From the NCBI GenBank assembly GCA_022828595.1, contig JAKGHH010000006.1, forward strand, positions 11,966,633 through 12,030,632: a stretch of 64,000 nucleotides of DNA, written 5' to 3'. Below are positions 17,477-45,313 of this stretch, one piece after another; position 1 is the stretch's first letter; each line of letters begins with the position of its first letter. The position numbers and the translations under genes are program-made. The notes beneath the pieces are model-generated. The model did not search any database, was not told where the DNA came from, and saw nothing but the letters and a program-made list of their open reading frames with translations. The stretch is from Nelumbo lutea. Lineage: Eukaryota > Streptophyta > Magnoliopsida > Proteales > Nelumbonaceae.

Positions 17477-17620
17477 GGGTAAAATACAAAAACTTCCCAT
17501 GAACTTTCTGACAATCATAAAAACCTTCACTATAGTTTCACTTTAGCAAAAACCTCCCCGCTATGTTTAAAAAAATTTGACAAAAACTTCCTTCCGTCAA
17601 TAATCATGACGAAAAACATT
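17477..17620 (+). repeat. Left terminal inverted repeat of the 27.8-kb segment
   Basis: Pairs with 45171-45313 in inverted orientation. Shared words in order include GAACTTTCT, ACAATCATAAAAAC, ACTTTAGCAAAAACCTCCCC, TTTGACAAAAAC and ATCATGACG. Identity by eye is roughly four bases in five, so the insertion is not recent. Confidence 0.75.
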
Positions 17621-18582
17621 AAACCAATGATCAAATCTTTTCAAATACCTATTTTACCCTTTTACAAATTAAATCCCTCGATCTAAACTAGTCTTGATCA
17701 GTTGTGCTACAGCTCGGCCTTCCTGAAACTCTTTCTCTTCACTAAGGAACCCAATGGCAATAGTACGAAGAAAGACAAAGAATAGAGATCAGGAAATGAA
17801 GAGGGAGAAAGCGAATACTAGAAGGTTTACTATTCATTATCTTCAATGAATGAAGAAGACCTGAATAGAGGATGCCGCCCCGCCCCACCGTATCATACTA
17901 TCAAAGACAACTCAATCCAACACCTAGTGCAGTACTATAATCAAGTGTAGGGATTATATGTAATTTTTCAGTTTTGCCCATTAATCTCCAAGGTAAAGGA
18001 CATAACTGAAAAATGGTCCGGGTTTAGTGTTTCAACCAAATACACACTGCATGTGCTTTGGGTATAACTTTATCAGCTAAAACAAGCTATCCCAACTTCT
18101 TTGGCAAGAACATCAATATTAACTAAACACACACTGCATGTACTAAATTGTCGCATTTTAAAGTTTGGGGACCAAAGTAACACTAGAGACATAGTACAGG
18201 GTACTAATAGAGAATATTCCCCTTTTTTTTGTGAACATAGAGCTCCATTCTCATCACTCGGGCCCATTATATTAAATATGAGATGTGAAAGATGAGAATG
18301 AAATTGGTGGAAAGTTCTTTGTTTCTAACTTGAGAGTGACTAAATAGATGTAGTTTGTGGAAAATTTAATTTTGAGCTTTCAATTTTGTGGCCTTTTTTC
18401 AATTTTGAGAGTAAGTAAATAGATGTAACGTGTGAAAAAAGAAAAAATAGGTTTCTAACTTGAGAGTGACTAAATAGATGGATTTCTTCCCCAAATCCAC
18501 TAGTGTGAATAATTCTAAGCATTACTAAAGTCCTCTTGTTGGTTCCTGAATAACCATTGTAAGTTCCTGATTTACTAGTGTG
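17621..18582. other. Unassigned sequence inside the MULE-bounded segment
   Basis: No gene is recognised. The words CTTGAGAGTGACTAAATAGATG (about 18328 and 18459) and ACACACTGCATGT recur. The short open frames look incidental. Confidence 0.4.
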
Positions 18583-18985
18583 AATACTTGGGAAGAAATC
18601 CATGCCGTTGTAAGTTCCTAAATAACCTAAGGGCATTAGCGGTAAAACCTGCTATGCATAGGCCATCAACTATGGTGTTATATGTAGTTGGAGATGGAGA
18701 AACATTGCTTAGGATCATATCGCAGAAGATTTTGTTAGCTTCTACTGATTGTCCAGATTTAAAGAAACAGATCATCAAAATATTGTAACTCTATATGTTA
18801 AGAATGATATCATTTTGAAGCATTTCTTCGAACAAATTGAGACATAGTGGTAGTAAGCGATTCCTGGTGGCACCGACAATCAAAGCATTGTAAGTAATGG
18901 CATTTGGGTTGATCCCAGCTTCCCTCATTCTACCAAAAACTATGTATGCTTCATCAATTCCAACTAATCTACAATAGGCCACAAC

Positions 18986-19232
18986 TAGATCTGTTCATGG
19001 GCTGGGATTTTGCTCTTTATTAACATAAAATTTTCAGGCCCGAGCCCGAGCCCGGTCCTCATAAAAAACTTGAAGCCCATGCCCAAGGTCGAAATCCGAC
19101 CTGCAAGTCTGAGCATCGGTGACCTCTGAGGATTGAGAGAATGGTGCCTGTTGAGTTCGCTGATTCCTGGGAGTCTGAGAGTAAGAATAGAAATTGAGAA
19201 AGTGTGAAGATAGAAGATGACAACAATGCCAG

Positions 19233-19269
<37 letters not shown>

Positions 19270-19439
19270 CTAGATTTGGTGGTGCTATCTGCCAGTGCCT
19301 AAGTTCGTAGAATGAAAACAGTGCACCTGGGTTCTAGTGGCGCCAACTAGAGAGAGAACTGAGAAGATAGAAGACCTTGTTCTAAGAAGAGAGAAAACTG
19401 AGAATGAGAAGAAAGAAGATAAAAACGGTGCTGGCTGGA

Positions 19440-19505
<66 letters not shown>

Positions 19506-19841
19506 ACCTTCGAAGAGAGAGATGATTATTTTTGGTGGTGTCGATTGCTGGTGACTTAGTTCGCAGGTGCATCTGGGTTCGCCGGTTCTGAGAATTGAGA
19601 GGGAGAAATGAGAGCTGCTTCTAAGAGAGAGTGAAAAATGAGAATGAAAAGAAATTTTTTAAGTATTTAGGGTTAGGGTTAAGTAGTTTAGGAAAAATTA
19701 GGACGGGCCAAGCTTTTTTAACAAATCTCGAATCCGGCCCGTAAAATAGTCGGGCTCAGGCTAAAACACATACTTAAGCCCATCCGAGAGCTGGGCCAGG
19801 CTAGGCCGGATGTCAGGCTACCTGGCCCATGAACACCTCTA
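18986..19841. mobile_element. hAT element in the PPR sequence, 856 bp
   Basis: A perfect 8-bp duplication GCCACAAC (18978-18985 and 19842-19849) flanks ends TAGATCTGTTCATGGGC and GCCCATGAACACCTCTA. Removing the element and one duplication restores a continuous PPR reading frame (YNKLVVAYCRLVG). The interior has two (GA)n tracts (about 19234-19265 and 19441-19502) and no transposase. Confidence 0.9.
19441..19502. repeat. (GA)n microsatellite
   Basis: About 30 GA units, nearly uninterrupted, inside the hAT element. It produces a spurious RERERE-type open frame. Confidence 0.95.
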
Positions 19842-20037
19842 GCCACAACCAATTTATTATAAGTTACCACATTTGGGAGACACCCTAGTTGTATACCATC
19901 AATTAAAACCACTTGCGTTTTTTCTAATTGTCACACTTTACACAAAGAAGCTACACAGATATTCATTAAGCAAGTCAAAAGTCTACCGACGATTCCATGA
20001 AATAGGTCTAGAGAAATCCAAACCTGTATGAGATGGG

Positions 20038-21632
20038 AGCATTCCGTATCAAACAACACTAGAAAATGTAAGAATAACTAAAGGAAGGCATCCAAGCTTT
20101 TGGAACAAAAACAAAATTTACCCTAACTTCTCTCTTTCTTTCAAATCGGTACTGGAAAAGACATCCAAAGAAAATTTCTTTTTCTTGGTAGTTTCTACAT
20201 GACTTTACAGTAGTAGCCATTCTTGTAGAAATAGAAGAAATATGGTATCGCCATGGAGGCTTCTTACCTATGGGGTGGAGTGGGGTGGGGTGAGTGTGTA
20301 AGACCACTTTTTCCTTGTGTGTAAAAGAGTCAAAATCACTTATCAGGTTTACTGATAAGTGATTAATGCATAGTATTTGAACAAACCAGTGATACAACAA
20401 TCTTTAATGATGTCATAGTATTTAATGCATGATAAGTATATTTTTAAAATGTAAATTAATAAAAAGTAAGTAGACCATATAACGCCTTTAATGTGATTTG
20501 TTTAAATTTTTGATGTAACATGCAAGTAAACATTTTCAAATACACTTTAATTAGATTGTGTAGTTTAAGGAGTTAAATGATATCCCTCAAACTAAGAGTT
20601 TACATCACCTTTAAAATCTATTTATTTTACTTTAATTTCCCAAGTCTCTATGCCCATCATCATAAACTTCCTATTTTTATTAGGTCCTATTTATTTGTTG
20701 GTATTTAGCAAGTGGTAAGTTGGTTAAATAGGCAATTGACCACACATCTCCACATTCACATGCTACATATTGGCTCTCATGGTAAGTCAAGACCTATTAC
20801 CTCAACAACTAATACCCTCTTAGAGGGTGTGTAAGCAACTTATTCGTGCGCTGATAATGCTCCTCCCTAGTACCTCTCGTTTTATTTGGGTAAGTAGCTT
20901 ATATCACACAAGAACATTGGAATTGAACTTTTCCAGACACGTTTTACTTAGGAAACATTTTCCTAAATAAACTCATTTACCTAAGTGAAAATGAATGGAG
21001 CCAACTTAAGGTAAAAGACTTAAACATCCCTTGGCTTTTTCTCCAAAATATTAAAACTTCCACTCTTCTCAAATTGGACTAAGACCTCCCCCATCATATG
21101 ACATTATTGGATAAAGACTTCCCCTCCATTAACAATCCATCAACCTGTGACTAAATTTTGTTATTTTTTTTTTCAAAAATCCATATTGTGCCTCTTTTCA
21201 CACAATTATATGAAGGAATCCTTGAACTGTGATTTCTCCCAATCTGAAGGTTGAGAAAATGAGTAGGATGTAATCTCATGAACTAGAAGAGGACACAACA
21301 CTGTTCATCTAGTTACATGTGACCCTCTTCTAACCAACTGCATGACATAATCCAGTAGCCGTCATTCTTGGAATTGAGCATGGCTTAGATTTATTAATAT
21401 GTCCCCACCATGATGTCACCTTATCTCATTCAAGGTGGGGTTGTATCAAATTATCAGTACACCACTTTGATTTTCATGTAATTTACATTAATTGTGCATT
21501 TTTTTTTAATATAGACTAGCATTTTTTTTGTGGACAGTATGAAGCAATTTAATCTGAAAAATAGATGTAGAAAGGGAGGGAGAGGGACAAGCCCAAAGCA
21601 TGGGGCATGGCATGTTAAATGTGAAAATTACC
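20038..21632. other. Intergenic, no gene seen
   Basis: No supported gene is present. A 113-codon minus-strand frame at 20059-20400 has no recognisable features. The stretch is AT-rich spacer up to the Tat LTR. Confidence 0.5.
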
Positions 21633-22535
21633 TGATGGTGTGCGATCTGAGCACTCATAACTAGAAGTGGTTACGCTCCTATTTGGCAGCGGACGAAGCA
21701 TCTGCAAGGAAGAAGGTGAAGGATTTTTGGGGAGCTCTCCTATCAGAAACACTTTGATGCTTAAATCAAACTTGGTGGGGAGCTGGGAAAGAGAGAGTTA
21801 CAGGGAAGTAAGCTAAGAGTGGAGATGCGCAATTACCTTTGCCCATGAGGGGTTGGGTCTCTTATATGCTGATGTCCTGACAACTCAAGTATAACCGCCT
21901 CTGATTCTCTGCTGCAGTCGTTATTTGCTAGGGCTGAGCTGGTGGGCGCAGGTAACCATTGCAGGATACAGCCCTGCCAGACAGGGGACACTTGTCAGGG
22001 CATGATGCCGCCTGGCTAGAGATGTGGGAGCAGTCTCCAGATCTGGCGGGTATGGTTGTCAGGCGACATACTGAGCTACTTGGTACCGAGCTACTACTAA
22101 TATGCCGAGGTGCTTCTACCTGAGGCAAGTCTTTGAGGTGGCTACTTAGGCTTGGGCAGGAGCCTACTGGTGGGCTTACCTGAAGTGCCTTCAGTTCGGG
22201 ATGTTCCTTACCCTGGGATCTTAGATCGGGGTGTTCCCTTCTTGAGGAGGAGCTTAGGGGCTCCTTACTAAGGAAGAGCTCGGGGGCTCCTTACTTGTGA
22301 GGAGCTCGGGACTCCTCACTTGGAGGGACCTCGGGGCGCTCCCCCCTTGGGAGAGAGCGGGGTAATCGGAGTACCACTTTGCCACAAGCTACCACCTGTG
22401 CCAAGCTGTCAAGCTGGGTCCCAGCGAGCTCATTACACCGAGTTGTGGCTAGGTTGTCATGCCAAGTTGTCCCTTATGTCGAGTCATATCCACGTGTCCC
22501 CCTATTGTGAGGTCAGGCCAAATCACCCTCCATCA
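21633..22535 (-). repeat. 3' LTR of the Tat-lineage element, 903 bp
   Basis: The minus-strand start is TGATGGAGGGTGATTTGG at 22535 and the end is CGCACACCATCA at 21633. A minus-strand CATATAAGAGACCC near 21850 is a candidate TATA box. Both ends match the solo LTR at 34862-35209, diverged, including CGACCTCAC...ACACGTGG near the start. Confidence 0.75.
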
Positions 22536-22552
22536 ATTGCCCCCCACTCTCC
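22536..22552 (-). other. Polypurine tract of the Tat element
   Basis: The minus strand reads GGAGAGTGGGGGGCAAT immediately before the LTR start. This is the expected plus-strand DNA primer. Confidence 0.75.
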
Positions 22553-22843
22553 ATGCTAGGAGTCTTGACCCATTGTGGGGAGTTCACGATGTGACAGGTG
22601 GATTTGGCTCAAAGTTCAAGCCGTTCAGTCAGGCAGCTCGTTGGTCGGACCAGTTCGCAGCTTGGCTCAATCAAGGAAAACCTGGGTCGCGTACAGTTCA
22701 CGCGTAGATGTCACACGATTTATAGACTCCATGGACGTCAAAAAACGTGCTAAACTGATTTCACCTCCGGGGTCGTGTAGCCGGTTTTCTTAAGAGTCGT
22801 TAGATCCTCTTGATCATGATCATTGATGCTCGGACATAGCGGC

Positions 22844-22851
22844 TATAAATA
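22844..22851 (+). promoter_or_regulatory. TATA box for the antisense ORF
   Basis: GGCTATAAATAGGGGGG on the plus strand lies about 215 bases before the ATG of the antisense ORF. The sequence between contains a possible leader intron (GTGAGT at about 22975, a TTTTTCAG acceptor at about 23054). Confidence 0.6.
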
Positions 22852-23064
22852 GGGGGGGACCCAAGTCATTTTCTCCACCATAAGTTCACTAGCACTCGCC
22901 TTGAGGTTGCGTCTAAGGTCTTCAGCTCGGGTTCAGTCCGTCTCTTTTCCCCAACTCGATTGCTTTTTTCTTTGGTGAGTCTCCCTAGCTCATTCTTTCA
23001 GTTCGGTTCTTGTCTTTTCAGTTTCGTAGCTAGCTTCCTTTACTTCATTTTTCAGTCCGTAGCT

Positions 23065-25083
23065 ATGTCAAACCATAGCTTCAACAGTCTCTTAGATGAG
23101 CCCGAGGTGAGTGCCCCAGTTAAAGTACATAGTCTCTTAGATGAGCTCGAGGTGGGTGTCCCGGCTCAAGCGGGTGCCTCCGAGGTACAATCAATCTATG
23201 AGGTGTGGGAGACCTCGGGTAACCCAACATCCACCTCTAATTGAGGTTGAATAATAGACAATTTTGGTCCTTCTACCATGACGGTAGACAGGCTTAGGAG
23301 CCTGATAGCTCGGTATAACCTTCCTAGGGAGTATACCTACCACTTTCCTACGAGCGACTTCCCCTGGGAACACGGTCATGACAAGATCGTGATTTTCAGG
23401 AAATAGCTCATGGTCGGACTCCGCCTTCCACTACACCCCCTAATCGTTGAAGTGTTAAATCACTTCGACGTCACTATAGATCAACTCCACCCGAGCTATG
23501 TCTAGAATGTGTTTGGTACAATTTCCCTCTGCTTCGACTATGCCCTTCCTCTTGACCTTGACATTTTCTCTTCTATCTTGTCAATAAAAAAGAATGCATC
23601 TAGCATTCTCCCTAAGCACAAGCAGACCTACTACCTGTCCCCCCGCTCGGGCTTCAAGTTGTTGCATAAGCTTCCTAGTAAAGTCCCGGCTTGGAAACGG
23701 GATTACTTTGTAGTTCATAACTCTGTAGGGTGGCCCTTCCCTACTCACTAGAGAGTGGCCATTCAAGACTTCGGCATTAGGCTAGACTGGGATACAAGCG
23801 AGATACTTCAGTCTTGGGCGGAGCTCGGCTTAGACTACAAGGACTACCTCACCGAGAACAAGTTCATTGAGGCTGGCCTGAGTCCCAATAGGTTGCCTTG
23901 TTTAGAGTTAGTATTTTTCTTCGGTCGCCAGTTTCTACTTCTTGGTAGCATTACTGATGTTGAACTTTGTTGCAGGTCCAGTGGAGCGACTTAGTGTAGA
24001 GAAGCTCTTTGGAAAAATGAAGGGGAGAAGGAAGCGAGCTACAAAGAGAGCTCGCATTGAATCTCCACGGGCTCCTACTCCAAGCCTAAGCTGTCTGCTA
24101 AGCAGCCTGCTGATGATCCTCCGATGATAAACTTGGAGGAGTCGGAGAACCCCTCACCTCGGGAGCCTGAGGTGATTGCGGAGCCCGTTCCCAAGACAAC
24201 TACGGAGCTCACTCCCAAGACTGCTGCTACTATTTCGGGAAGCGGAGAATCAGCCCGGGGATCAGCCCAGAGTATTTTGAACCCGTAGTACAACCTCCAG
24301 AAGAGCAAAGGGGCTGCGTGTGCCGAGGAGGTCTCCAGTTGGGCCGAACTATCGCCTGCTAAGCTTGGAACTCGAGTAGCTACTCATTGCATGGTGGTAA
24401 GTTTCGTTATATTTCAACTTCAATTTCTGCAATTGTTGCTTTAATGGTGCTAACTGGCATTCTCTTGGCAGGTGAACAATGTCGTGCACGCCCTAACCTA
24501 CCAGTCTGAGCAGCACTTAAAGCGAGCTTTGTCTATCAAAGACCCAGCCCGCGCAGCCCACTCCGATCTGAAGCTAGCTCACGGCCAAATCCACCGGTTG
24601 GAGGGTGATGTGCTAGTTCAAAAGGAGCTAGTTGCGTTGTTGAAGTCAGAGAAGGAGGAGTGGTAGCGCGAGAAGGAGGAATTGCTGCACAAGGTGAAGA
24701 ACCTTGAGTCAGATAAGGGAACTTTGAAGTGTCAGGTTGAGAACCTCGAGGCTGATGTTAAGGAGCGAACTGAGATCCTCCTTACTGCCATGGAGGAGGC
24801 CAAAGTCAAGACCGTTCAAGACTACGTCAAGTTGGAGGAGTTCGATGGGGTGATGGTGGAGGCCTACCGCAAAGGCTTCAAGCTTAGTTGGTGGCTAATA
24901 AAGCGCGAGTTCCCGCAGCTCGACATGAGCGCCATCACCACTTTGCAGATCACAAGAGAGGTAGCCCGCATAGCCGCCGAGGACCAAGACTTCGAGGAGG
25001 AGGAGGAAGTAGCTGACATCAGGGAGGCTGCCGACCGAGCTGGCACTCCTGCGGAGACTTCTTCTAGGAATGATGACGAGTAG
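23065..25083 (+). pseudogene. Antisense ORF of the Tat element (gypsy-type PF04195-like), spliced, decayed
   Basis: Reading from ATG 23065 (MSNHSFNSLLDE), one frame runs to about 23910 with TGA/TAG interruptions near 23242, 23404, 23503 and 23749. It contains LPLHPLIVEVLNHF and YYLSPRSGFKLLHKLP, the style of the putative gypsy-type transposon family. A probable intron starts at 23911 (GTATTT) and ends TTTGTTGCAG at 23975. A clear intron at 24397-24471 (GTAAGT...TTGGCAG) joins HCMV to VNNVVHALTY in phase. The C-terminal part (24472-25083) is coiled-coil-like, with KNLESDKGTLKCQVENLEA and an acidic tail. It lies opposite to gag-pol. Its role in these elements is unknown. Confidence 0.65.
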
Positions 25084-25504
25084 TTCCAGCCCTTGTACTT
25101 TGAGCCCATGAGCTCAGTTTCTCTTTTCTTCTCTTTTTGTACCAAACTTATTGTAATGAAACTCTGGTAATGAAAATATGCTTTTTGCTAAGTGCTGTGC
25201 AATTTACTTTATTTGCCGATGTAATCATTTTACCCCGAGCTATTAAGCTATCGAGCTAAATACCCGAAGTAGGGGTTTCTTAACTGTCGTCACCCCAAAC
25301 TATCTCCCAATACTTAGGTGTGATTCTATGATGTACACCGAGGTGAGTGACATAGTAGGGTATATGCTCTTCCTGTCTGCACTCGGGTTACTTAAGTTGA
25401 TGTCGATTGTCCCTATTGGGTTCAACCCGTTGTATGCCAGGGTGGGTTATGCATCGTGGGATTCACACCCGAGCTGTCTGTGCCTTAGGCATTAAAAGTA
25501 CTTA

Positions 25505-26003
25505 GCCTATGCTGATGAGGCGACTAGGTCTTATGTGGTGCCGAGGTCTTTTATTAACTCGGTGCTTTAGCCCTTGGGCTGGGGGAGCGACTTATAGTCC
25601 ACTCTCCTAGAGTTTGCCCATGCCGAAGAGGCGACTGGGCACCGAGATCATTAGCTCAGCGTCTTGGCCCTTAGGCCGGAGGAGCGACTTATAGTCCACT
25701 CCTTTGGAGTTTGCCCATGCCAAAGAGGCGACTGGGCGCCAAGGTCCTTATCTTGGCGTTTCAGCCCTTAGGCTAGGGGAGCAACTTATAGTCCACTCCT
25801 CTGGAGTTCACCTATGCTGAAGAGGCGATTGGGTGCCAAGGTTGTTAGCTTGACGTTTTGGCCATTAGGCTGGGGGCGCAACTTATAGTCCACTCCTCTG
25901 GAGTTCGCCCATGCCAAAGAGGCAACTGGGTGCCGAGGTCCTTGGCTCGGCGTTTTGGCCCTTAGGCTGGGGGAGCGACTTATAGTCCACTCTCCTAGAG
26001 TTC
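25505..26003. repeat. 97-bp minisatellite, about five units
   Basis: ACTTATAGTCCACTC recurs at 25590, 25687, 25784, 25881 and 25978, an exact 97-bp spacing four times. Each unit also holds GCCCATGCCRAAGAGGC and GGCCCTTAGGCYGGGGG. It lies between the integrase end and the antisense ORF, that is, in the 3' untranslated region of the Tat element. Confidence 0.92.
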
Positions 26004-26109
26004 GGTAATTACAGGTGATATTGCCTTAGGTTGACAATATTCCATGCTCGAGGTACCTACTTCCCTTCTAGGGTTTCGAGCTCATACGTTCCTTCCCCGA
26101 GTACTCGCT

Positions 26110-26911
26110 TTACTCAGTAGGGTCCTTTCCAATTTGGGCCGAGCTTATCAACACCGGGCTTAGGTACCATGACTTTGCGAAGAACCAGGTCACCAACACG
26201 GAGATTCCGCTTCTTGACCCTGGTGTTATATTACCAAGATACTCTCTATTGGTAGGTTGTGGCCTTAATGTATGCAAGGTCCCGTACCTCATCAAGTAGG
26301 TCGAGGTTGGTGCATAGTTCATCCTTGTTTGCTTTGTTGTCGTATGCTTCCATGCGTAGCATGGCTCTCTTTGTGACCTCCGCTTGGCTGTTCACTTGAG
26401 GGTGCGCCACCGATGTAAAATTTTGTTGTATTCCCATATCTTTGCACCAATTCTAGAATTTAATGTCCTTGAGCTACTTGCCGTTGTTAGAGATGAGTAT
26501 TCGAGGTAGTCCGAAATGGAAAACTATTTTCTTCCAGAAGAAGTTCTGCACATTCCGTGTTGTGATCGTTGTGAGAGGTTCGGCCTCCACCCACTTAGTC
26601 AAATAATCAATTGCTACCACTAAGAATCTCTTTTGTCCTGTTGCAGGTGGAAATGGTCCAAGTATATCAATCCCCCATTGTGCGAAGGGCCATGGGCTTG
26701 TGAGGTACTTTAGGTCGACAACGGGTTGGTGGTGGATATTGGCATGTTTCTGACATTTGTCAGACTTTCTGACAAATTCAATTGCATCTGCTTTCAATGT
26801 TGGCCAATAGTATCCCTGTCGTAGCGCTTTCTGGGTGAGGGCCCTCCCCCCCCCCCAAGTGTCCACTGCACAGGCCCTCATTAGTGTTGCGGAGCACGAG
26901 CTCGGCCTCAA
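26110..26911 (-). pseudogene. Tat element integrase, degenerate
   Basis: The minus strand gives a zinc-binding remnant (RQGYYWPTLKADA...CQKHANIHH) and the core WGIDILGPFPPATGQKRFL with the first catalytic Asp. The second catalytic region reads LISNNGK where gypsy integrases have SDNG, so an Asp has become Asn. The third block (SVAHPQVNSQAEVTKR, about 26370-26420) is in a shifted frame. Downstream NKANKDELCTNLDLLDEVRD is the usual C-terminal region. Confidence 0.88.
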
Positions 26912-27072
26912 AAGGTCAAAAGTAGCATTGATAGGGGAGCGTGTAAGATCTTCGGTATATCCGTTTGTCTATCATGACGTATTTGGCTGCCTGATGCTCT
27001 ACCGTCTAGCAGCATTACGATCTGCAAGGAGGGTCCCGTGCAGTAGGAAGCTCACGAGTGTATCGATCTAGC

Positions 27073-27534
27073 TCAGCTCTGCTTGTATGACAGGACCGAC
27101 CTCCTCTGCCCCCCCCCCCCCCCGAGAATGCTAGGCCGAGGCAAGTTCTCTATGTACATGGTTCTCATGGTATTATCACTTGTGCTAGCTAACCGGGACA
27201 AGGCATTGGCCTTAGCGTTCTCAGATCTCGGGATTTGCTTAATGAAGTGGGACTGGAAGTTGAGCAGAGTCTCTCTTACTTTGGCTAAGTAGGCGACCAT
27301 GGTTTCATATTCACCTGTGACTTGGTTGACCATGAGCTGGGAGTCACTGCAGATGACGATGTGCTTGACTTTCACTTCATTTGCTAGAGCTAGCCTGGCT
27401 ATTAACGCCTCGTACTCCGCTTCATTGTTGGACATAGCGAACTCAAAGCATAGCGCATGCTCTAGTTTCACATCACTTGGCCCGTATAGAACGATTCCAG
27501 CCCCGCTGCCCTGCTGATTTGACGAGTTGTCCAT
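27073..27534 (-). pseudogene. Tat element RNase H, nearly open
   Basis: An open frame of 153 codons shows MDNSSNQQGSGAGIVL, then FAMSNNEAEYEALIARL, ICSDSQLMVNQV and RSENAKANALSRLAS, the RNase HI-like order of plant Tat and Athila elements. The catalytic Asp, Glu and Asp positions are present. A run of about 18 C bases at 27103-27120 follows the domain and breaks the join to integrase. Confidence 0.88.
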
Positions 27535-27842
27535 GTGAAGGATCCAAGGCTCCTAATCCCAGTTCGGGTTTAATCTAACTAGGAGAGAAACTGCACTGGT
27601 TGTTCCTTCGCGGTGCTCGGGCTCATCCAGCTTGGGGACTTCGGTGCTGAAAGTACATTCTATGACAAAGTCAGCCAAGGCTTGGGCCTTGATAGCAGTT
27701 CATGACTTGTATTGGATGTCGTACTCGTTGAGCTCGATGGCCCACTTTGTCAACCTATTTGAAAGTACGGACGAAGCTTCCGAGTTACAACAACTAGAGC
27801 ATACGCCAACTTTTCGATCTCTGGGTACCTCGTCTCGGCCCC

Positions 27843-28720
27843 CTACAACACTTTGCTAACATAGTAGATAGACCATTGGACCCGATCTACCTCTTTTATT
27901 AGTACCGAGCTGACTATATCGTCACTCGCGGAGAGGTATAGCTCCAAAGTATCTCCCACCTCGGGTCGGGTCAAGGTTGGGATATGGGCGAGGTACTTTT
28001 TGAGCTCGTCGAAAGCGAGCTGACAGTCTTCAGTCCATTCAAAGCCTTTACTTTTAATCGCCTTGAAGAAATGCAGGCAGCGATCTGCCGACCTAGACAT
28101 GAAGCGGCTCAGGGCGGCTATGCGGCCATTCAACCTCTGAACCTCCTTCAATTTTCGGGCTGGTCTCATATCTAAGATGGTCTTTATTTTTTCAGGGTTA
28201 GCCTTAATGCCACGTTGGTTGACGATGTAACCTAGGAATTTACCCAAGGTGACACCGAAAACGCACTTCTTTGGGTTTAATTTCATGTTAAATTTACACA
28301 AGATTTCAAAGACAAAATGTAAGTCTTTTATTAAATCACTTGAAAACTGAGTTTTGACGACCATGTTGTCTATATAGCATTCTACTTTCTTGTCGACCAA
28401 TGACTCAAACAATTTGTTTTCAAGTCTTTGGAATGTAGCTCCGATGTTTTTCAGCCCAATGGGCATGACCTTGTAGCAGTACATGTCAAGCTCGGTTATG
28501 AAGGCTATTTTTTCTTCATCAGCAGGGTCCATTCTGATATGGTTGTAGCCCGATTAGGCGTCCAAGAAGCTCAACAACTCATGCCCTGAGGTCGCGTCCA
28601 CCAAACGGTCGATCCTGGGGAGTGGGAAGCAGTCGTTTGGGCAAACCCGGTTTAGGTCAGTATAATCGACACACATGCGCCATTTACCGTTAGCCTTTTT
28701 TCCAGAACAGGGTTGGCCAC
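27843..28720 (-). pseudogene. Tat element reverse transcriptase, degenerate
   Basis: The 229-codon frame holds EKIAFITELDMYCYKVMPIG, then CYIDNMVVKT where the family has Y(V/I)DDM, so the second catalytic Asp is Asn. It continues with NPKKCVFGVTLGKFLGYIVNQRGI and GFEWTEDCQLAFDELKKYL. The preceding part (28533-28720) is in another frame with stops. Confidence 0.9.
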
Positions 28721-34861: not shown

Positions 34862-35209
34862 TGAAGAAGGAAGATTTAGCCCGACCTCACTATTACGTGA
34901 CACGTGGCAGAAACAACAGCTCGGCAAAAGGGGCCAAGCCTAGGTGAGAACAAGGGCACTAGCGGACTGAGCTCCCTACCGGGGGCCCGAACTGACCCAC
35001 CTTGTAACAGCTCGGGACACACTTCGCCGAACTGACCCACCTTGTAACAGCTTGGGATACACTTCGCCGAACTGACCTTGTAACAGCTCGGGACACACTT
35101 CGCCGAACTGACCCACCTTGTAGCAGCTCGGGATACACTTCGCCGAACTGACCCACCTTGTAACAGCAAGGCAGCGGACAGCTAAGACCGGCCGGATCGC
35201 ACTCCATCA
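34862..35209 (+). mobile_element. Solo LTR in RLP exon 4, 348 bp
   Basis: It begins TGAAGAAGGAAGATTTAGCC and ends GATCGCACTCCATCA, flanked by a perfect 5-bp duplication ATAAC (34857-34861 and 35210-35214). Both ends match, diverged, the LTR of the Tat-lineage element at 21633-22535. Excision of 353 bp restores the leucine-rich-repeat frame (FIRDN joined to HLNGTFPAN). The first bases create an in-frame TGA at 34862. Confidence 0.92.
34991..35166. repeat. 40-bp tandem repeats in the solo LTR
   Basis: ACTGACCCACCTTGTAACAG units start at 34991, 35031, 35071, 35107 and 35147. The third unit is 4 bp shorter (36 bp) and the last is partial. Each contains TTCGCCGA at its end. Confidence 0.9.
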
Positions 35210-36967
35210 ATAACCATCTAAACGGGACATTTCCTGCAAATGGTACGTACATTCTTCTTTGCGTTCCTTCCCTAATTTTCTCTACGTACCAATGCAAATA
35301 CACAATTTGTCTCTCTTGATTACTACTTTTGTTACAATATAATTATCATTTTTATTTATGTTTGGTGTTTTCTTTTTCTTGTCAGAATTAAGTGATCTAA
35401 ACAACTTGCAAATGTTAGATTTGAGTGAAAATGAATTCACCGGCACTCTAGCAATCCAAGGTATATAAGCCTTCAAATCTCTCACGAATTTCTATGTAGT
35501 TGGATTATCTATTTCTTAATCAACTTTAATTTTCTTTGTTAATATTACTATCAAATTTGATGAATAATTTGTACAATTAACTGGGCTCCAGAACTTGCGA
35601 AGGTTGGATTTGAGTTGGAATAAATTCAATCACACTTCACCGATCCAAGGTACGTATTACGTAATGTGTGTGATCTTCATCACACATCCATATTTATAAA
35701 ATAAAATAATGTTGCATATCATAAACACAAAGTCGATGCATGCCAAAGGCTGTGTTGATTTGGTCTGTACACTGAAGGTTGTCTATCATGGTCTCAGCTG
35801 GTGTTAGGCGGGGCCTGTTTCAACAATTGTCTAAGTATATACATAAACTAGGAAACATCATGCTTATATATCGTTCAGCATCTGATCGACAACTAGAGAT
35901 TACTTCGGGTTGAAGTTTGTATGGGATTCATCTTCATTCATCAGCTTCGCAATACTCATCCACATGCTTTCTTAGAAAATTTTAAAATTTAAAAAGAAAT
36001 ATCACTAAAGATGTTTGGTTTGGAGGTAAACGTAGGGAAAGCTATATTGAAGTCTGTCCAAACCATGAACAGGTTTCCCTTCATTAATTTCCTTACCTTT
36101 TACTTCTAAGGAAACATAGCCTAAATTAAATGGATTTGGCTCTCAGGTTCTATACCTTCTTGCATAAATAACATCACATTTAAAGGAGAATCAAACTCAT
36201 ATAGAAGAAACTCAGAAGTTGAGCTTCTTCGATTCGCATATGATGATATATATACATATAAAAGTATGTTAATTCAATCTAAAAATGATTTCCATGATGA
36301 AAATGCCATGGTGGAAGTAGAAGTGGAGTTCACAACAAAATTCCGGTACGAAACTTACAAGGGTGTTGTTCTTGAGCTCATGTCTGGAATTGATCTCTCT
36401 TGCAACAAATTAATAGGCAATATCCCACATAAAATTGGAGATTTAAGTGATATTCTTGCATTGAACCTATCGCACAACTATTTAAATGGGCAAATCCCAC
36501 AAAGCTTTTCAAATCTGAGAAAAATAGAGAGTTTGGACCTTTCCTACAACAATTTGATGGGAATGATCCCTCCTCAGATGATTGAGCTAAACTCTTTGTC
36601 GAATTTCAATGTGGATCATAACAACCTATCCGGAAGGACTCCAGAGAGAAAAAAGACAATTTGCAACATTGGGAAAACTAGCTATGAGGGCAACCTTCTT
36701 CTTTGTGGAGAACCCTTAAAGAAGAATAATTGCACAAACAGTTCCAAGGCACCACCATCTATGCAAACAACTCCTGATGACATGGACATGGATATGGACA
36801 TGGACAGGTTTGTTGTAAGCTTTATAGCTTCTTATATAATAGTGTTGTTGGGTTTGGTGGCAGTCTTCTACATAAACCCCTATTTGCGACGAGTTTGGTT
36901 TTATCTAATTGATGTTTGTATTACCTCTACTTACTACTTTGTTACGGACAATATCCACAAATTTTAA

Positions 36968-37315
36968 CTTATTGTTGTTTTCATAAATATTTTATCTTTT
37001 TAAATATCCACAGATCACTTATTATTCCAACTCAGGTCTCATAGTTCGACAAACTGTTATATTTTTCTTATTAATTAACAATTATATATGATGAAGTGGT
37101 ACCAAAATACACTTGAGAAATACATTTCTCCTACATCATCCTTGTAGATTCAGTTTTTTTATTTTTATTTTTGAGAAAGTATTATTTCATTGCTCCAAAT
37201 AAGAATTCAGTTTGGTGAAATAGAATTAACCAGAGGTCGGGATTTCTCAAAAGAAAAGAAAATTCAGATTTCATCAGTACATCTCGCATCGTATTCTCTT
37301 TGAATGTGATTTGCT
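36968..37315. other. RLP 3' flank with repeat B
   Basis: No gene is present. A short block (TTGCTCCAAATAAGAATTC...GAATTAACCA, about 37181-37235) recurs at about 40999-41050 in the same orientation. Confidence 0.6.
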
Positions 37316-37950
37316 AGGTATGTACCCTCAAATTCCTCAAGTCTCTATCGCTTGTAATTACCAATTAAGAAAGAATTGGTTTAAGTCTACTCCCTAGAAT
37401 TCCCCTCCAACCCTAAAATTTGTTGATTTTCTTCTATTGTTTCACATTCTTTTTTTTTTTCTATTTTATGTGCTTTCTGAAAAACCATCAAGGTAATTTC
37501 AATCACTTGTGAGTACTTAATGTTGGGCATCTCTATGCATCAATATCCTGCAGGGTTCTTGGAGTGACAAAAAACTCTTTTTCAACCCCGACCTTGCTGC
37601 AGCATCAGCTACCCAATTAATTAACCTTCATGGTGCACTACCCAAAGGAGGCGGCCAAACCAGAGCATAGCGACTTTAATATCCCTTACACACAAAAAGA
37701 ACTTCCTGCCGAAAGCTATCAACGTGTTGTCGTGCTATGTCATGTCGGCCCATGGGTTTTGAACCCCCAGCCAACACGGCATGAACCTCTGTGCCATGTC
37801 TGACACTCTGACATGGCGCATTAGTCATTGTGTCGTATCAAACTATGCTAGGCCATAGGCAACCTAGCCCGATTTACACCTCTAACTATCATGCAATCGT
37901 AAAACCGTTTTAATAGTTTGGGCTTCCAGTTTGATAACAAGAGTATGTAA
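37316..37950. repeat. Repeat A, copy 2, with LRR exon scrap
   Basis: It begins GGTATGTACCCTCAAATTCC, similar to the RLP exon word GCCCTCAAATCCCTCAAGTC. It continues with GTTGATTTTCTTCTATTG, then the repeat A body. It stops abruptly at GTATGTAAATGGGCC, where gypsy sequence begins. Confidence 0.8.
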
Positions 37951-39630
37951 ATGGGCCTGGACGATGTAGTGTTGGAGCACACCATCAGGTTCGATTTCAA
38001 AGCGTCCAACAATGAGGCAGAGTATGAGGCCCCTAATTGTTGGGCTCTTAGCTCGTGGTCAACCAGATCCATGGCTAGTTTGAGGCTTAGGCTCCCTCTA
38101 TGGCGAGCTTCCTACTAAATGTGTAGGAGCTCATTCCGCAACTTGAGCACTTCGACATCCAGCAGGCCTCTCGGACTGAGAATGCTCGAGCCGATGCCCT
38201 TTCAAGGCTCACCAGCTTGCCTTAGGCCAACCTTGACTCAACTGTCCGTCTAGACATGCTGGCCGAACCGAGCATTACACCATCAACCATCCTCATCCTT
38301 TTCGTGCAACATGGCTCATCTTGAACGGACCCCATAATCGAGTATCTTTGAGGGCACCTCCCTAGAGGGTCGGGCAAAAGCAAGAAGACTCCAACATAGA
38401 GCAGCCAAGTATTGCCTGATATAGGGTCAACTCTACCGCCGTTCCCACACGCTTCCCTACTTGAGGTGCCTTCCCCCAACTGAGGCATACTACGTCCTTA
38501 GGGAAATACATGAGGGCATTTGTGGAGATCACCCACACTAGCCCATAAAGTGCTCTGACAGGGATATTTCTAGCCAACGATGAAGTAGGATGCCACCCAG
38601 CTAGTCCAGAAGTGCAACAGTTGCCAACATCAATCTAATCTATATCACCAGCCTGTGGCCCCTTTGAGACCGATCGCCAGCCCATAGCCATTTTCCCAAT
38701 GGGGAATGGACATCCTTGACCCCTTCCCCACCGCGGTTGCGTAGAAGAAGTTCCTTCTCGTAGAAGTGGACTACTTCACAAAGTGGCTAGAAGTTGAACC
38801 CCTAGTGCGCATCACCGCCCACAATGCCCAGAACTTCCTTTGGCGGGGAATCATCTGTCGCTTCGGTATCCTATGCATGATCATCACAGACAATAGAACA
38901 CAGTTCATCGACCATCGAACTACCATGGTACACTAACTTTAGAGCAACGGGCAGACCAAGGTAACCAACTGTGTCCCACTACATGGCCTGAAAACACGCC
39001 TGGATCAGGCCAAGGGAAGGTGGGTCGAGGAGTTGTCGAGCATTCTCTGGGCTTATAGGACGACCCCACAAGTTGCCACCAGAGAGACCCCTTTTAGCTT
39101 GACCTACGAGGCCGAGGTCATCGAGATAGGTTCCCTAACCCTTCGAACCGTGCTCTTTGATGAAGGATGGAATGAGGAAGATCTACACATGGAGTTGGAC
39201 CTAGTAGAAGAAGCTCGGGACTGGGCACATGTAAAGATGGTTGCACAACATTAGAAGATGGCATGACATTACGATTCTAAGATGACGAGGCATGAATACT
39301 AGACAAACGATTTCGTTCTACGCAAAGTCATAGTCCCCACACCAAGAGAAGGGAAGCTCGGATCAAACTGAGAAGGGCATATAGGGTCACTAGAGTCTTC
39401 GGACTAGGTACTTAAAGACTTGAAAACATTGAGGGTTGACCAATACCGAGGAGTTGGAACTTGGGAAACCTCAGGATGTACTACCAGTAGACCAACAAGC
39501 AATAAAAGTATCTTTTTAAGCTACTTCACCGACCCAAAGATGCGCCCATGACCACTGCACACACTACGCATGCACATGCTGAGTCGCACTGCCAACTAAG
39601 CTGACTCCGTCGATCCCCAAATGGTTGAAT

Positions 39631-39828
39631 CCATTGTGCCGAGCTCGACAGCACATTGCCAAGCACGATACCCGACTCAGTTGCCAACGGCTGAGCCCAT
39701 TGCACCCAGCTTGACATCACATTGCCAAGCAAGCTACCCGACTCAGCTACCAACGACTAAGCCCATTGTGCCTAGCTCGACAGCACGTTGCCAAGCAAGC
39801 TTCCTGACTCAGCTACCAACAGCTGAGC
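39631..39828. repeat. 66-bp tandem repeats, three units
   Basis: CCATTGTGCC, CCATTGCACC and CCATTGTGCC start at 39631, 39697 and 39763. The 66-bp period is a multiple of three and so keeps an open frame (22-residue repeats with QLPTAEP). Confidence 0.9.
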
Positions 39829-39990
39829 CTAAACGTGCAGGAAGAATGCCCCCCACCCACTAAGGCCTGAGGGCGGTCAAGGAACTCCACACTGCCTCCG
39901 ACTTAATGGTTGAGCTAGCTGGGAAATGGCTAGCCCCAAAAGGGCCCCAAAGGCTCCCGAGACCAAAAACTGAGTGTCTCATTATTGAGA

Positions 39991-40270
39991 GCTTAGAAAC
40001 TGAAAGATCTCAGACAATGGTAACCTCGATCAGAACAAGACTGGGGACGTCGATGTGTAGCCTGAGTTTGGAAACCGAAAGATCTCGGACAATGTTAACC
40101 TCGGTCAACACAAGACTAGGGACGCCGAGGCATAGCCTGGCTGGCTATGCCTCATCCAACAATACCTTGGTCAGCATAGGATTGGGGACACAAAGGTATA
40201 GCCTGGCTGGCTACACCTCAGCCACTCGACCAGCACAAGATTGGGGATGCCTGGGTTTGGAAACTGAAAG
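39991..40270. repeat. Diverged tandem repeats of about 75 bp
   Basis: TTAGAAACTGAAAG/TTTGGAAACCGAAAG recurs at 39993 and 40067 and again near 40254. Between them the words GGGACGCCGAGGCATAGCCTGGCTGGCTA repeat with variation. This is probably the 3' untranslated region or U3 of the gypsy fragment. Confidence 0.7.
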
Positions 40271-40275
40271 GTCGA

Positions 40276-40980
40276 GTACGTACCCTCAAATTCCTCAAGT
40301 CTCTATCGTTTATAATTACCAATTAAGAAAGAATTGGTACGTAACCTCAAATTCCTCAACCCTAAACTTTGTTGATTTTCTTCTATTGTTTCACATTCTT
40401 TTTTATTTTTCTATTTTATGTGTTTTCTGAAAAACCGTTAAGGTAATTTCAATCACTTGTGAGCACTTAATGTTGGGCATCTCTGTGCATCAGTATCATG
40501 TAGGGTTTTTGGAGTGACAAAAGACTCTTTATCAACCCCGACCTTGCTGCAGCATCGGTTACCAAATTAATTAACCTTCATGGAGCACTACCCAAAGGAG
40601 GCAGCCAAAGCAGAGCATAGCAACTTTAATATCACTTACACACAAAAAGAACTTCCTGCCTAAAGCTATCAACTTGCTGTCGTGCTATGTCATGCTGGTC
40701 CAGCACTGTACGAACCTCTGTGCCAAATCTGACACAGCGCATTAGTCATTGTGCCATATCAAGTTGTGCTGGGCCATACCGGGCCACAGGAAACCTGACC
40801 GATTTACACTTCTAATTATCATGCAATCATAAACCCGTTTTAGTAGTTTGGCCTTCCATAATGAGAGTATGTAAATGGGCCCGTTGAAGCCATGCAATAA
40901 GTCAAAGTGTGAAATACACATAAATAATTACACCACAAACTTTGAAGGCTTTTGGAAGTCTATTGGCCCGAAATAACATA
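40276..40980. repeat. Repeat A, copy 3, with LRR exon scrap
   Basis: This is a direct repeat of 37316-37950, including TACCCTCAAATTCCTCAAGTC, GTTGATTTTCTTCTATTG and the A body. It continues beyond the copy 2 breakpoint, as copy 1 does (CCCGTTGAAGCCATGCAATAAG). Repeat B follows at about 40999. Confidence 0.8.
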
Positions 40981-41344
40981 CATGACCCGAAGTGTTATTT
41001 CGTTGCTCCAAATAAGAATTCGGTTTGGTGAAATGGAATTAACCAATTAATAATTCAAAATACTCCCATCTGTATTTATCTTCCAATAGTCAAAATTCGG
41101 AAGCTGCTACACCAAGGGGGAATCGGCATTAGCATCAGTCTTAATTTGAACAATCTGTTGACCAATTAAAAGCTTTCCCTTATTTAAGGCTCAATTTTTT
41201 TCGACAGATAATATTCTAATAATTAAAAGAATATTAAAAGTAAGTTTTAACCAATTAAAAGAAAATGAAATCATGTCATTTAGTCTAATATATGAAATAA
41301 AATCATGTGACTAATTACTTTGTGATAGTGAGAATGTTAACTAT

Positions 41345-42105
41345 GATGAAATTATGGCTTTTGTAGAAATTCTCCGTGAAAGATCATGGAGAAGCCGCCT
41401 ATATCTTTGGACTTCAATTTTATAGAGATAGATCAAAGAGGATAATAGGATTATCCTAGTCTACTTACATTGACAAGATTATCAAAAAATATAGCATGGA
41501 GAACTCCAAGAAGGGATTTGTCCCTTTTAGGCATGGAGTCACTCTCTCCAAGGGTATGCCTCCTAAGACTCCCAATGAGATGGGCATGAGAGAGTTTCCC
41601 TATGCCTCAGCCGTAGGGAGCATCATGTATGTCATTCTGTGCACTCGGCCAAACATTGCTCAGGCAATGAGTGTGGTGAGTAGGTATTGATCAAACCTAG
41701 GACAAGAGCACTGGATATCTGTAAAGGACATACTCAAATACCTTCAAAGGACAAAAGAGTTTTGCCTAGTTTTTTGATAGTGGTTCACTATAGATCCTAG
41801 GGTATATCGATGCCGACTTCTAGTCAAATCCAGATGATAGAAAGTCTACATTTGGTTACATCTTTAGAATGTGGTCCTATGTAATAAGAAAAATAGTCCA
41901 CGACCCAGGCCAAGCACATTGCCATAAGTGACAACACTAGATTTTTGGGAGATTGTTGGGAAAGGGAATGTCCATATTTAGAATGTAGCATCAACGAAAA
42001 ATGTGGCAGACCCATTGACAAAGGCACTGACATAGAAAGTGTTTGAGAAATACGTGGACAGTATAGGACTCCAACTTGTACCCGATTGGACCTAAGTGCA
42101 AGTGG
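41345..42105 (+). pseudogene. Ty1/copia RT C-terminus and RNase H, degenerate
   Basis: Translation gives GEAAYIFGLQFYRDRS, YIDKIIKKYSMENSKKG, an open frame at 41496-41690 with SAVGSIMYVILCTRPNIAQAMSVVSRY, and then broken RNase H (IRKIVHDPGQAHCHK). It runs into a copia polypurine tract (AAGTGGGAGT). Only the 3' third of the element is present. Confidence 0.85.
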
Positions 42106-42109
42106 GAGT

Positions 42110-43818
42110 TGTTAGATAGTGTATACCCTTAGCTCCAATCAGATTGATGTACTTTTGACATTTATTGTAAATGAATAATAATACATAATTGATTTGTGTT
42201 ATATATGGTGTGTTTTTATATAATACCCTTAAATTGGACACTTATAAGACTCGTGTTAGTTTAGAATCTTCACAACCACTGGATAGACATAGGGAGGTTT
42301 ATCTTGCCAAGAATGAAACTAATGTGCTACCAAGTTGGTTGGGGTGGTTTGTCTCAGCTATCAGGGTGAGACCCAAAGCACATGTAGTGTGGGTTTGATT
42401 GAAACTCTGAACTGAACCATTTTTCAGTTGTGCCCTGGACCTTGGAGACGGATGGGCAAAACTTGAAAGTTACACCTAACCCCTAGACTTGATTATCTTA
42501 TTGCACTAGGTGTTGGATAGGGTTGTCTTTGATATGCCAATCAGTGAGATCCTTAGTGGGGGTCAAAACCTGGGTATGTTGGGGCAGTCTAAGAATTCAC
42601 CTGAGTGGATGATCATAGTGGTAAAATCAGCCCCTTTGTCAGACAAAGTGAATGATCGGGGATAGCACTCTCTCTGATGGAAACCTAAACTACTGGTAGT
42701 TGATTTCAAATGTGTTTGAAATTTGTTTTGCAAAATAAGTAAATATATGTGTATACATATTATGTTTTTATGAAAATTTGTTTGCAAAGATTTTAATTGT
42801 CGGGGTCCATCCTGTGTAAAGAGTGTGACATTGTACCTTCCAGCCAAGGGAGAAGTTCTCTCTTATCAGGCAGTGTTTGATTATTATGGGTTGAGAGGTT
42901 AAGTGTAAGACCATTTAGGGTTTTTACCTAATGGGCTAATCTCGCTTAAGTCCATAGTCCTTGGGCCTTCATAAAGTAGCCAGACCCAATGACCATTTAG
43001 TGTAAATGTTGGGCTTTCTAAAAGTCTATATTGATGTGCTCAGGGGTTCACTATGTTCAATAGTGAATTCGGCTAGGCCTTGTAATAGAGATTAAGCTGA
43101 ACCCATATGGATTTTGTGGAGATCAATGTTAGGGTCCCACGCCATACAAAAAGAGACAAGCTTGCCAACAAATTAAAAGGGAAGTGAGCCTGATAACTTA
43201 ATGGGCCTAAAGTCCATTTTGAACTAGGTTAATTTGATTAATTAAATATGGGCAAATTTGATATTAGATTTGGATATAGATCAGCAAGAGGATAAGATAA
43301 GTCTTATCCACTTAAGAGTTCAGATCCAAATAAAGATTTGGATCAAAGAACTCTTTCTTGATAGGATTAGGAAGATGATCCAGATAGGTTATAAATAGAG
43401 GGCGAATTCCTTTTATTAAACACTTTTGCAGAATCCAGTTCTTTCCTCTATTCTTGCCGCCCTACCCTGTTTGATCTCCATAGTCTTGGATTGATCAAGA
43501 TTCGATTTTGATTTTGATTTTGGCTAAAAAAATCAGATCTAAAGTTGTGCTCACATCCCCTATGTGATCTTTGCTGAAGGATTATTGTTCTTATTGAATA
43601 ACTACTTTATTAATCCTACTTCATCCTAAGCTGTGTCATCTTCAGTGGAGGCAGAATTTGGTGACCTCTTTAGGCATGAACACCTATGTTGAAGCTACAT
43701 TTGTGGATTCTGTATCAGGTATGTTCCTCCATCCTTTTGGTTTCAGATCTGGTCTAGCTTGTTTCAATAACGAACATTGAAAAATACAGTTTTTCTAAAT
43801 CAGGGAATACGATTCCCA
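42110..43818 (+). repeat. 3' LTR of the copia element, about 1.7 kb
   Basis: It starts TGTTAGATAGTGTATACCC directly after the polypurine tract. A TATA box (TATAAATA, 43390-43397) precedes AGAGGGCGAATTCC and a CT-rich leader. I place the end at CAGGGAATACGATTCCCA, but the right edge is approximate because no second LTR or primer site follows. Confidence 0.6.
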
Positions 43819-43867
43819 AAAAGGAGAATGAAATTTTTTGAAATTTCGCTCAGCCACCCTGCATGGT

Positions 43868-44488
43868 TCAACCATCCATATGTGGATCTCCCTTCCCTTC
43901 AGTCAAGGCCCCATAATCATCACTTACAGCCTTAAGCAACAGTTCTAAAAATTGTTTCTGATATTCTACTTCCACTAGAATGCAATCTAATGAATATGAT
44001 TGTTGACGTCGAGCAATGATGCAATCTTTATTCTGAATAATGTCCTTCAATATAGTAGTAATCCTTGCCAGTGATTCGCACTTCTTTTCCATTTCACTCA
44101 CATGCGTTAGATGTGCAATATTCTTGTTGTCCTTTCGACCTTGGAGCTCCACTTGCAAATCTTCTATTTTTCTTTGTACAGTGGTTAACTCTCTCAAGAC
44201 CTTTATCAGATCATCACTCTTGTCACCAGTATTGGTAGACAAGCTTTGCAGATCTTCTTGGGAAGGAGGAGAAGAAACTATAAAACCAAGATCAGCTGCA
44301 AGAGACAATGCATCAAACCTCCCTCCTAGGCCCCTAAGAGGTTTCTTTCCAATCCAACTTGTATCACTCCCCATTGAGATATCAGCAATAGCAGCCTTCC
44401 AAATCAATAGTAGGCCTTCTCTCTTCTTTGGTCTGGGTGTTGGCCTGAATTTACACAATGCACCAGGGGAACCATAGTCTCGTTTCAA
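43868..44488 (-). pseudogene. AUG2: AUGMIN subunit 2-like sequence, truncated and intron-less
   Basis: The plant AUG2 protein belongs to the augmin complex, which recruits gamma-tubulin to spindle and cortical microtubules. The frame matches from [18 protein letters not shown] (Met at 44374) through [20 protein letters not shown] and [18 protein letters not shown] to [20 protein letters not shown], about 160 residues, and then homology stops. That is the N-terminal half to two thirds of the family by memory. No intron is visible within it. It reads inward from the right terminal repeat of the 27.8-kb segment. It may be a retrocopy or a fragment captured by the MULE-like element. An extra N-terminal 38 codons look non-native. 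Confidence 0.75.
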
Positions 44489-45170
44489 TATCTGACCTCT
44501 TTGATTCGGAATCGGTCTGAAGGGATCTATTGTAAGAAAATGGAGTTCCGAGCTTAAGCTTTTCAGAGTTTATGAGTAGAATGTATGTTGGAGCTAACAT
44601 GATAGACCCACGTTTCTTCTACTCTTAGCTGGCGTGAATGATGAACAAAAGACTCACAGCAGTGTATGGGATGTGAAAATGAAAAAAGAACAGAGAAGAG
44701 AGGGAGAAAGAGAGAGAAAGAAAAAGAAATAAAAATCAGTGAAGGGAGGGGTGTCGTTTGCTATTTCTCTAGCTCTATTCGGGAGGTTGGGGATGATGGA
44801 TAGTGACCTTCCTTCGAGTTCGGCTCTAGTTTCACCAAGAAGGGATGTCATGCTAAAGTTAGAATCAATGATGGAGTGATGTGTCGTTGCTCCAAAGAAG
44901 TGACCGGAGAGGAGGAAGAGAAGAAAATGCCATCGCTGGGATCAAGAGGTTTTGTCCGCCGAGTCGCCGCCGCTCCTCTATTTTCATTCGAAGGGGGTAA
45001 GACAAGGAATAGTCAATTATCTCCCCTCTCTACTTTAGAATTTTCCCCCTACTCCGTTGCAACAGTTGGGTTTGCATTCTTCCACTCTATCAATAATAAT
45101 AGAAAATGTAAGATGTTGCTCTAGTTACAAAGTGATTAGATGACCTTTAGGGGTAATTTCATAGCTATAA
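44489..45170. other. Sequence between AUG2 fragment and right TIR
   Basis: No independent gene is recognised. The minus strand is GA/CT-rich around 44680-44730 and GC-rich near 44950-44975 (CCGCCGAGTCGCCGCC), which could be a captured 5' leader or promoter for the AUG2-like sequence. Confidence 0.4.
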
Positions 45171-45313
45171 ATGTTTTCCGTCATGATCATTGATGGAAGG
45201 GAGGTTTTTGTCAAAATTTTTAAACATAATGGGGAGGTTTTTGCTAAAGTTAAACTATGGAGGAAGTTTTTATGATTGTTAGAAAGTTCAGGAGAGGTTT
45301 CTATATTTTACCC
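45171..45313 (-). repeat. Right terminal inverted repeat of the 27.8-kb segment
   Basis: Inverted partner of 17477-17620. It ends TATATTTTACCC directly before the 9-bp repeat TAATAATTA (45314-45322). Confidence 0.75.

Follow-up and report, generated by a model that had tools for sequence, protein, structure and literature searches.

The window analyzed here is a stretch of 64,000 nucleotides from the genome of Nelumbo lutea (assembly GCA_022828595.1, contig JAKGHH010000006.1, positions 11,966,633 to 12,030,632), in which one copy of a Helitron-like repeat is split by a 27.8-kb segment carrying the terminal inverted repeats (TIRs) of a Mutator-like element (MULE) at its ends. From left to right, the segment consists of 422 bp of MULE sequence, a 3734-bp block from a pentatricopeptide repeat (PPR) gene cluster, a 9107-bp Gypsy retrotransposon, a block of ~10,591 bp from a receptor-like protein (RLP) gene cluster, a Copia retrotransposon of ~2572 bp and 1411 bp of MULE sequence containing part of AUG2; the limit between the RLP block and Copia, at 41.33 kb, is approximate and was read from frames. 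The original prediction took this segment for one very large MULE that holds PPR, RLP and AUG2-like sequences and was enlarged by later retrotransposon insertions. We consider it likely that the ends, which now lie 28 kb apart, are the halves of an ordinary Pack-MULE of ~2.2 kb in which other transposons and pieces of unrelated gene clusters, 26 kb in all, have taken the place of the middle.

End-to-end alignment of 17477-17620 with the reverse complement of 45170-45313 revealed inverted repeats of 144 bp with ~86% identity (score 186; three shuffled controls scored 19, 19 and 26), close to the ~143 bp predicted for both ends. They are flanked by the 9-bp target-site duplication (TSD) TAATAATTA, at 17468-17476 and 45314-45322 as also predicted, for which a nine-out-of-nine match has a probability of ~7e-5 from base composition alone. 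The uninterrupted copy of the repeat at 1913-5356, likewise foreseen as the joined form, is an empty site in which TAATAATTA is single. The left flank (17373-17476) aligns to 1923-1969 and 2415-2479 of this copy and the right flank, from 45314 onwards, aligns to it out to 5349; once the flanks are put together with a single TSD between them, they match it free of gaps over 75 columns spanning the junction. The other gaps between the two copies are due to two small elements, a 445-bp miniature inverted-repeat transposable element (MITE) in the uninterrupted copy (1970-2414) and a 169-bp element in the right flank (45333-45501), with 9-bp duplications, by reading, of TAATAGAAA and TTATATTTT, respectively. 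The split copy has a hairpin followed by CTAAT and the uninterrupted copy begins TCTACTAG at the opposite end, which is consistent with the Helitron label given to the split repeat (5' TC, 3' hairpin with CTRR, no target duplication). The 3' end of the uninterrupted copy, however, reads CTAT, not CTRR; the label is tentative, and we refer to the repeat as Helitron-like. A longer TIR formed by the inner inverted pair 17899-18096/42338-42534 was ruled out, as this pair is Copia long terminal repeat (LTR) sequence, and a TIR-like stretch at ~21010-21140 (score 40 to the left TIR) is without a convincing partner.

We searched the genome (843,662,401 bases in 63 contigs; about 40 candidates are scored in each genome search) with the right part of the segment, 43770-45169. 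Besides the segment itself, two matches, L052 (C1:146461144-146462367, 88%) and L053 (C6:29317197-29318427, 85%), begin at 43903, the first base past the Copia LTR. L052 is a complete Pack-MULE of ~2.19 kb with, by reading, a 9-bp duplication, ATTATTTTA. It matches 17474-17913 (81%) and 43903-45331 (84%) with ~400 bp between both matches, and no further sequence of the window, neither PPR nor RLP, was matched inside the element; the inner 26 kb of the segment therefore occupies the position of ~400 bp in the sister. Matches to the Copia LTR and to the hAT-like element in the L052 stretch lie outside its MULE. Both subterminal regions (17666-17897 and 45052-45319) are also matched by a 1.55-kb element, L036, and hits at C5:50127649-50128993, where both end regions lie ~1.3 kb apart, look like a third short sister. 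The possibility raised beforehand, that each end belongs to a different complete MULE, is not needed, since the two end regions occur together in L052 and again in L036, each a single short element; recombination between two members of one MULE family could conceivably have supplied the ends. Taken with the TIRs, the TSD and the empty site, the sister copy shows that a MULE inserted at this site.

The inverted repeat, a search for whose other copies had been suggested at the outset, recurs elsewhere in the genome. The left TIR gave 1579 first-look candidates, 40 of which were scored, and is present in at least 40 scored places. Twenty places were fetched, out of 34 scored places other than the studied segment; four of these are cut to known pairs and the rest extend ~9 kb inward. 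An opposite TIR was found in 18 of the 20, giving 16 elements that measure 1.47-2.48 kb and single elements of 0.78 kb and 4.50 kb, with the second TIR only partly matched and the element size extrapolated in several copies. TSDs match at nine of nine bases in L035, L042, L048 and L049, and are imperfect, shifted or extrapolated in the remaining fetched copies. Two places, L031 (C5:62676240) and L040 (C2:6280026), have no partner TIR within ~9 kb and may be further enlarged elements; L040 carries an internal Gypsy, and enlargement by nested elements is therefore not peculiar to the studied copy. L031 is the best match (91%) to the left TIR of the segment. L035 is another Pack-MULE of the family and contains, at ~1497-2010 (C7:727.3-727.9 kb), a similar but shortened Copia LTR with CAAGG flanking it (by reading). 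None of the 15 segment proteins scanned against Pfam, a selection of frames, matched a MULE transposase. Non-autonomous members of MULE families are by definition without transposase.

The AUG2 frame of the segment matches Pfam HAUS2 (1e-52), has its best protein match in Nelumbo nucifera and covers residues 1-158 of the 302-residue protein P0003, of which L052 retains residues 1-259 in three pieces in different frames. AUG2 is present in the segment, L052 and L053, and the host gene, with introns, is located at C1:178.46-178.47 Mb. There, three query stretches that adjoin one another, 488-661, 362-488 and 257-364, map to C1:178462184, 178472818 and 178473235 within an 11-kb interval (C1:178462184-178473342), whereas the Pack-MULE and its sister have AUG2 without introns, which suggests that a processed copy was captured. 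Query positions 659-1262, abutting the AUG2 part, match C3:106257185-106257783 (87%), so the Pack-MULE probably has a second capture, that is, two sources. Host gene sequence thus lies between the TIRs and is common to sister copies, as in other Pack-MULEs. Judged by these comparisons, AUG2 is the only content shown as MULE cargo.

The PPR and RLP sequences had also been predicted to be cargo, and the matches to 17621-19030 speak against this for the PPR block. Apart from the studied segment itself, 43 matches are among the 44 listed: 5 in the MULE part (to 17898), 20 short ones from 17899 (Copia LTR-like) and 18 that reach into the PPR part, 8 of which begin exactly at 17899. None of the 43 crosses 17898/17899 by more than 15 bases (one MULE match runs 15 bases on), and the PPR part begins at this breakpoint within a Copia LTR fragment. 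The best matches to the PPR part are C2:32700263 (93%), C2:102226543 (88%), C3:83169045 (91%), C2:102275187 (96%) and C2:101988251 (94%). L054, at C2:32.70 Mb, is the one copy of the PPR block that was read; it has no MULE and is colinear with the segment over 17899-18978 (92.5%), 19350-19692 (75%), 19814-20343 (90%) and 20429-21632 (89%). Its LTR runs on across the position matching the breakpoint, and the left join is therefore one of MULE to LTR interior. Remains of a hAT-like element sit at the same spot of the PPR sequence in the segment and, as a shorter remnant, in L054, so that the PPR block copies an already broken locus. At its left join, then, the block is free of mobile-element terminal features, and a donor-like copy of it lies elsewhere; both the joins and the donor-like copy are directly visible. 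Other copies of the block are clustered at C2:37.73-38.40, C2:101.99-102.29 and C3:83.17-83.18 Mb, and several share the LTR edge. A donor locus at which PPR and RLP sequences adjoin was not borne out beside the copy at C2:32.70 Mb, where 8 kb of neighbouring sequence contained only an 87-bp match (32945-33031) and no RLP exon.

The Gypsy LTR begins at 21632/21633, where L054 continues. At its other end the element breaks off within gag (30739), where it joins sequence recurring at 37318 and 40276. Beyond the RLP block, the Copia, lacking its 5' part, ends at 43902 inside AUG2, and the truncated ends of Gypsy and Copia thus both face the RLP block. The Copia RT/RNase H (reverse transcriptase/ribonuclease H) frame that was scanned had no Pfam match, nor did the single frame scanned (38943-39251) from the fragment at 37958-40275. 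The end of the RLP matches an N. nucifera RLP at 86% over 74% of the query, and no RLP match was found in the 10 kb to the left of the window. The edge of the solo LTR in the RLP resembles the Gypsy LTR near 22490-22538. The predicted enlargement by nested elements is supported.

A protein from N. nucifera, P0001 (171 aa, AUGMIN subunit 2-like), bears on the age of the Copia insertion. It matches 148 of 168 residues of the truncated AUG2, and its tail is the one that in the segment is translated from the Copia LTR; no other match joins Copia and AUG2 in the N. lutea genome among those listed for query 43770-45169. On the basis of this one protein, the Copia insertion in AUG2 is probably common to both lotus species, which have been dated 13.86 million years apart (PMC9325450), and P0001 is probably an annotated pseudogene cut by a transposon. 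This has no bearing on how old the PPR and RLP blocks are.

Under our reading, a non-autonomous Pack-MULE of ~2.2 kb with an intronless AUG2 inserted into the Helitron-like repeat and made the 9-bp duplication, as the TIRs, the TSD, the empty site and the sister copy show. A Copia, whose 3' LTR edge is intact, would then have landed in AUG2, and the 5' part of the Copia would have been lost together with ~400 bp of the MULE interior. Foreign chromosomal DNA would have been added in their place, namely a PPR-cluster block, itself broken, that starts at 17899 and a block of RLP-cluster DNA that starts at 30740, and a Gypsy would have inserted into the PPR block and been truncated against the RLP block. 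The PPR and RLP DNA most likely entered after the MULE had landed, by break repair with copied filler or by rearrangements, plus nested insertion. The 27.8-kb unit need never have moved whole and is probably without function as a unit. In favour of this stand L052, complete with both ends and AUG2 and free of PPR and RLP sequence, L036 and the other short family members, the PPR-block matches that stop at the MULE junction, L054 with its colinear block and no MULE, the truncated retroelements facing the RLP block, and the Copia-derived tail of P0001. Several observations weigh on the other side. Transposition of the entire unit would leave an identical TSD and identical ends. A version of the site that lacks the inner blocks was not encountered, so that 'after landing' is inferred, and the left junction has no clear microhomology. 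Moreover, L053 matches the right part only, with no left TIR in the 5 kb fetched, and the lack of partners within ~9 kb at L031 and L040 implies that longer family members exist.

Had the PPR and RLP blocks been assembled inside the MULE at a donor site, at a size of at least 10 kb before the retroelements, and transposed as one unit, this would explain why the segment as a whole is bounded by intact TIRs and a 9-bp duplication and has an empty site, and large MULEs are known from grapevine, with families of 17.7 and 16.2 kb (PMC2528002). We nevertheless regard this as improbable. Copies of a single giant Pack-MULE would be expected to share its interior, and neither L052, at ~2.19 kb, nor L036 contains the PPR and RLP blocks; the joins fall in an LTR fragment and at retroelements that are truncated, and no second copy of the 17898/17899 junction was found among the matches scored. 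The grapevine giants, furthermore, are families with a transposase, to which 0 of the 15 scanned proteins of the segment have a match. What stands of the original prediction is one MULE-type element, inserted once, with AUG2 as cargo and enlarged by nested elements; its main point, that a very large MULE carried the PPR and RLP sequences as well, finds no support.

Inversions or a translocation with a break in the MULE could have put PPR and RLP DNA between its halves, the right half having returned nearby later. The inverted Copia LTR sequences close to either edge of the inner block and the two truncated retroelements at the joins would fit such events, and since filler sizes in maize are far smaller than the blocks seen here, large rearrangement is a serious rival. 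At least two events would be needed to restore the order of the halves, however, and synteny between the lotus species is described as conserved without large rearrangements (PMC9325450), although the events could be older or smaller; we therefore hold this course to be unlikely, if somewhat less so than transposition of a giant unit. Least probable of all, to the point of being hardly credible, is an assembly error joining unrelated repeats within a real small MULE. The region is repeat-rich and the American lotus assembly of 843 Mb comprises 1652 contigs with an N50 of 1.34 Mb, 1597 of them anchored in eight pseudochromosomes (PMC9325450), but the duplications match, both halves lie within 28 kb, the window contains no N and the Copia/AUG2 junction is seen in a second species, in P0001.

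Pack-MULEs are numerous in sacred lotus, for which 1,447 have been reported (PMC4053705), and in tomato their sizes peak at 1.0-1.2 kb once nested elements are masked (PMC3310237). The studied element resembles them in its TIRs, its 9-bp duplication, its captured host sequence (AUG2 and the second stretch) and its short sisters, and differs in having 26 kb of cluster DNA and other elements where its middle should be. Internal retrotransposons also enlarge the MULE described in PMC3903597; our segment has PPR and RLP blocks in addition, and no transposase was found in it. The grapevine families of large autonomous MULEs, at 16-18 kb (PMC2528002), similarly have their ends far apart, but they are multi-copy and encode transposase, whereas the lotus family members are short. 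Filler-DNA repair and non-collinear gene insertion have been linked to plant transposon activity (PMC4423477; PMC3445842), and the segment shares with them foreign gene DNA at a transposon, lacking its own termini at the single join that was closely examined. Filler sizes of 1-131 bp are given for maize genes (PMC2686159), compared with blocks of ~3.7 and up to 10.6 kb here, where the mechanism is inferred.

Table 1. Features of the split repeat and of the segment within it (window positions).
Feature	Position	Strand	Evidence
Uninterrupted Helitron-like repeat (empty-site reference), with MITE 1970-2414	1913..5356	-	
Left remnant of split Helitron-like repeat	17373..17467	-	
TSD TAATAATTA, left copy	17468..17476	.	
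Left TIR of MULE	17477..17620	+	
Left subterminal part of Pack-MULE, common to L052 and L036	17621..17898	+	
Old Copia LTR fragment, reversed; LTR continues leftward in L054, cut at MULE junction here	17899..18096	-	
PPR-cluster block, colinear with L054 (C2:32.70 Mb)	17899..21632	.	
Broken PPR coding sequence; resumes at ~19845-19950 past hAT insertion	18600..18990	-	Pfam PPR_2 1.4e-33
hAT-like insertion in PPR, limits approximate	18985..19842	.	18-bp ends, 16 matches; 8-bp GCCACAAC on both sides by reading
Gypsy: 3' LTR beside PPR block, then integrase, RNase H, RT and gag; truncated within gag (30739), 5' LTR not seen	21633..30739	-	
RLP-cluster block; related segments 30740-31249, 37318-37957, 40276-40961; right limit approximate	30740..41330	+	
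Short copy of Helitron-like repeat, orientation opposite to 1913-5356 copy	31571..32427	+	
Degenerate RLP gene that retains introns; its middle was not recovered	33184..36967	+	LRRNT_2, LRR_8 (Pfam)
Solo LTR in LRR (leucine-rich repeat) exon of RLP, 5-bp duplication ATAAC (by reading)	34863..35209	+	
Fragment with an RLP-cluster segment on each side; resembles Gypsy integrase/RNase H by reading	37958..40275	+	
Copia remnant: 3' end of RT/RNase H (by reading), complete-looking 3' LTR from 42109, 5' part missing	41331..43902	+	
Intronless AUG2 copy, residues 1-158, cut by Copia LTR	43903..44430	-	
Second captured stretch of Pack-MULE	44428..45031	.	87% match to C3:106257185-106257783
Right TIR of MULE	45170..45313	-	
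TSD TAATAATTA, right copy	45314..45322	.	
Right remnant of split Helitron-like repeat, with 169-bp element 45333-45501	45323..47263	-	

Outside the segment, 12886-15067 is a strongly self-similar tandem stretch with copies 71-79% alike, and 48381-50123 holds a 581-codon open frame, the end of which resembles the beginning of Methyltransf_29 (3e-19).

The locus is ordinary in kind and unusual in scale. A bolder proposal, to which we give little credence, is that large-scale ectopic repair used the MULE interior as a sink. After excision or a break, the gap would have been filled in one or a few steps with a patchwork of more than 10 kb from a PPR and an RLP cluster, between intact MULE ends that could still have been mobile. 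Matching TIRs and a TSD 28 kb apart do not prove that a transposon carried what lies between them, and a sister copy can tell. Layer by layer, the locus exemplifies the growth of a small Pack-MULE into a mosaic, one that in a scan would pass for a giant gene-carrying transposon, and it also illustrates how pieces of PPR and RLP clusters reach new places.

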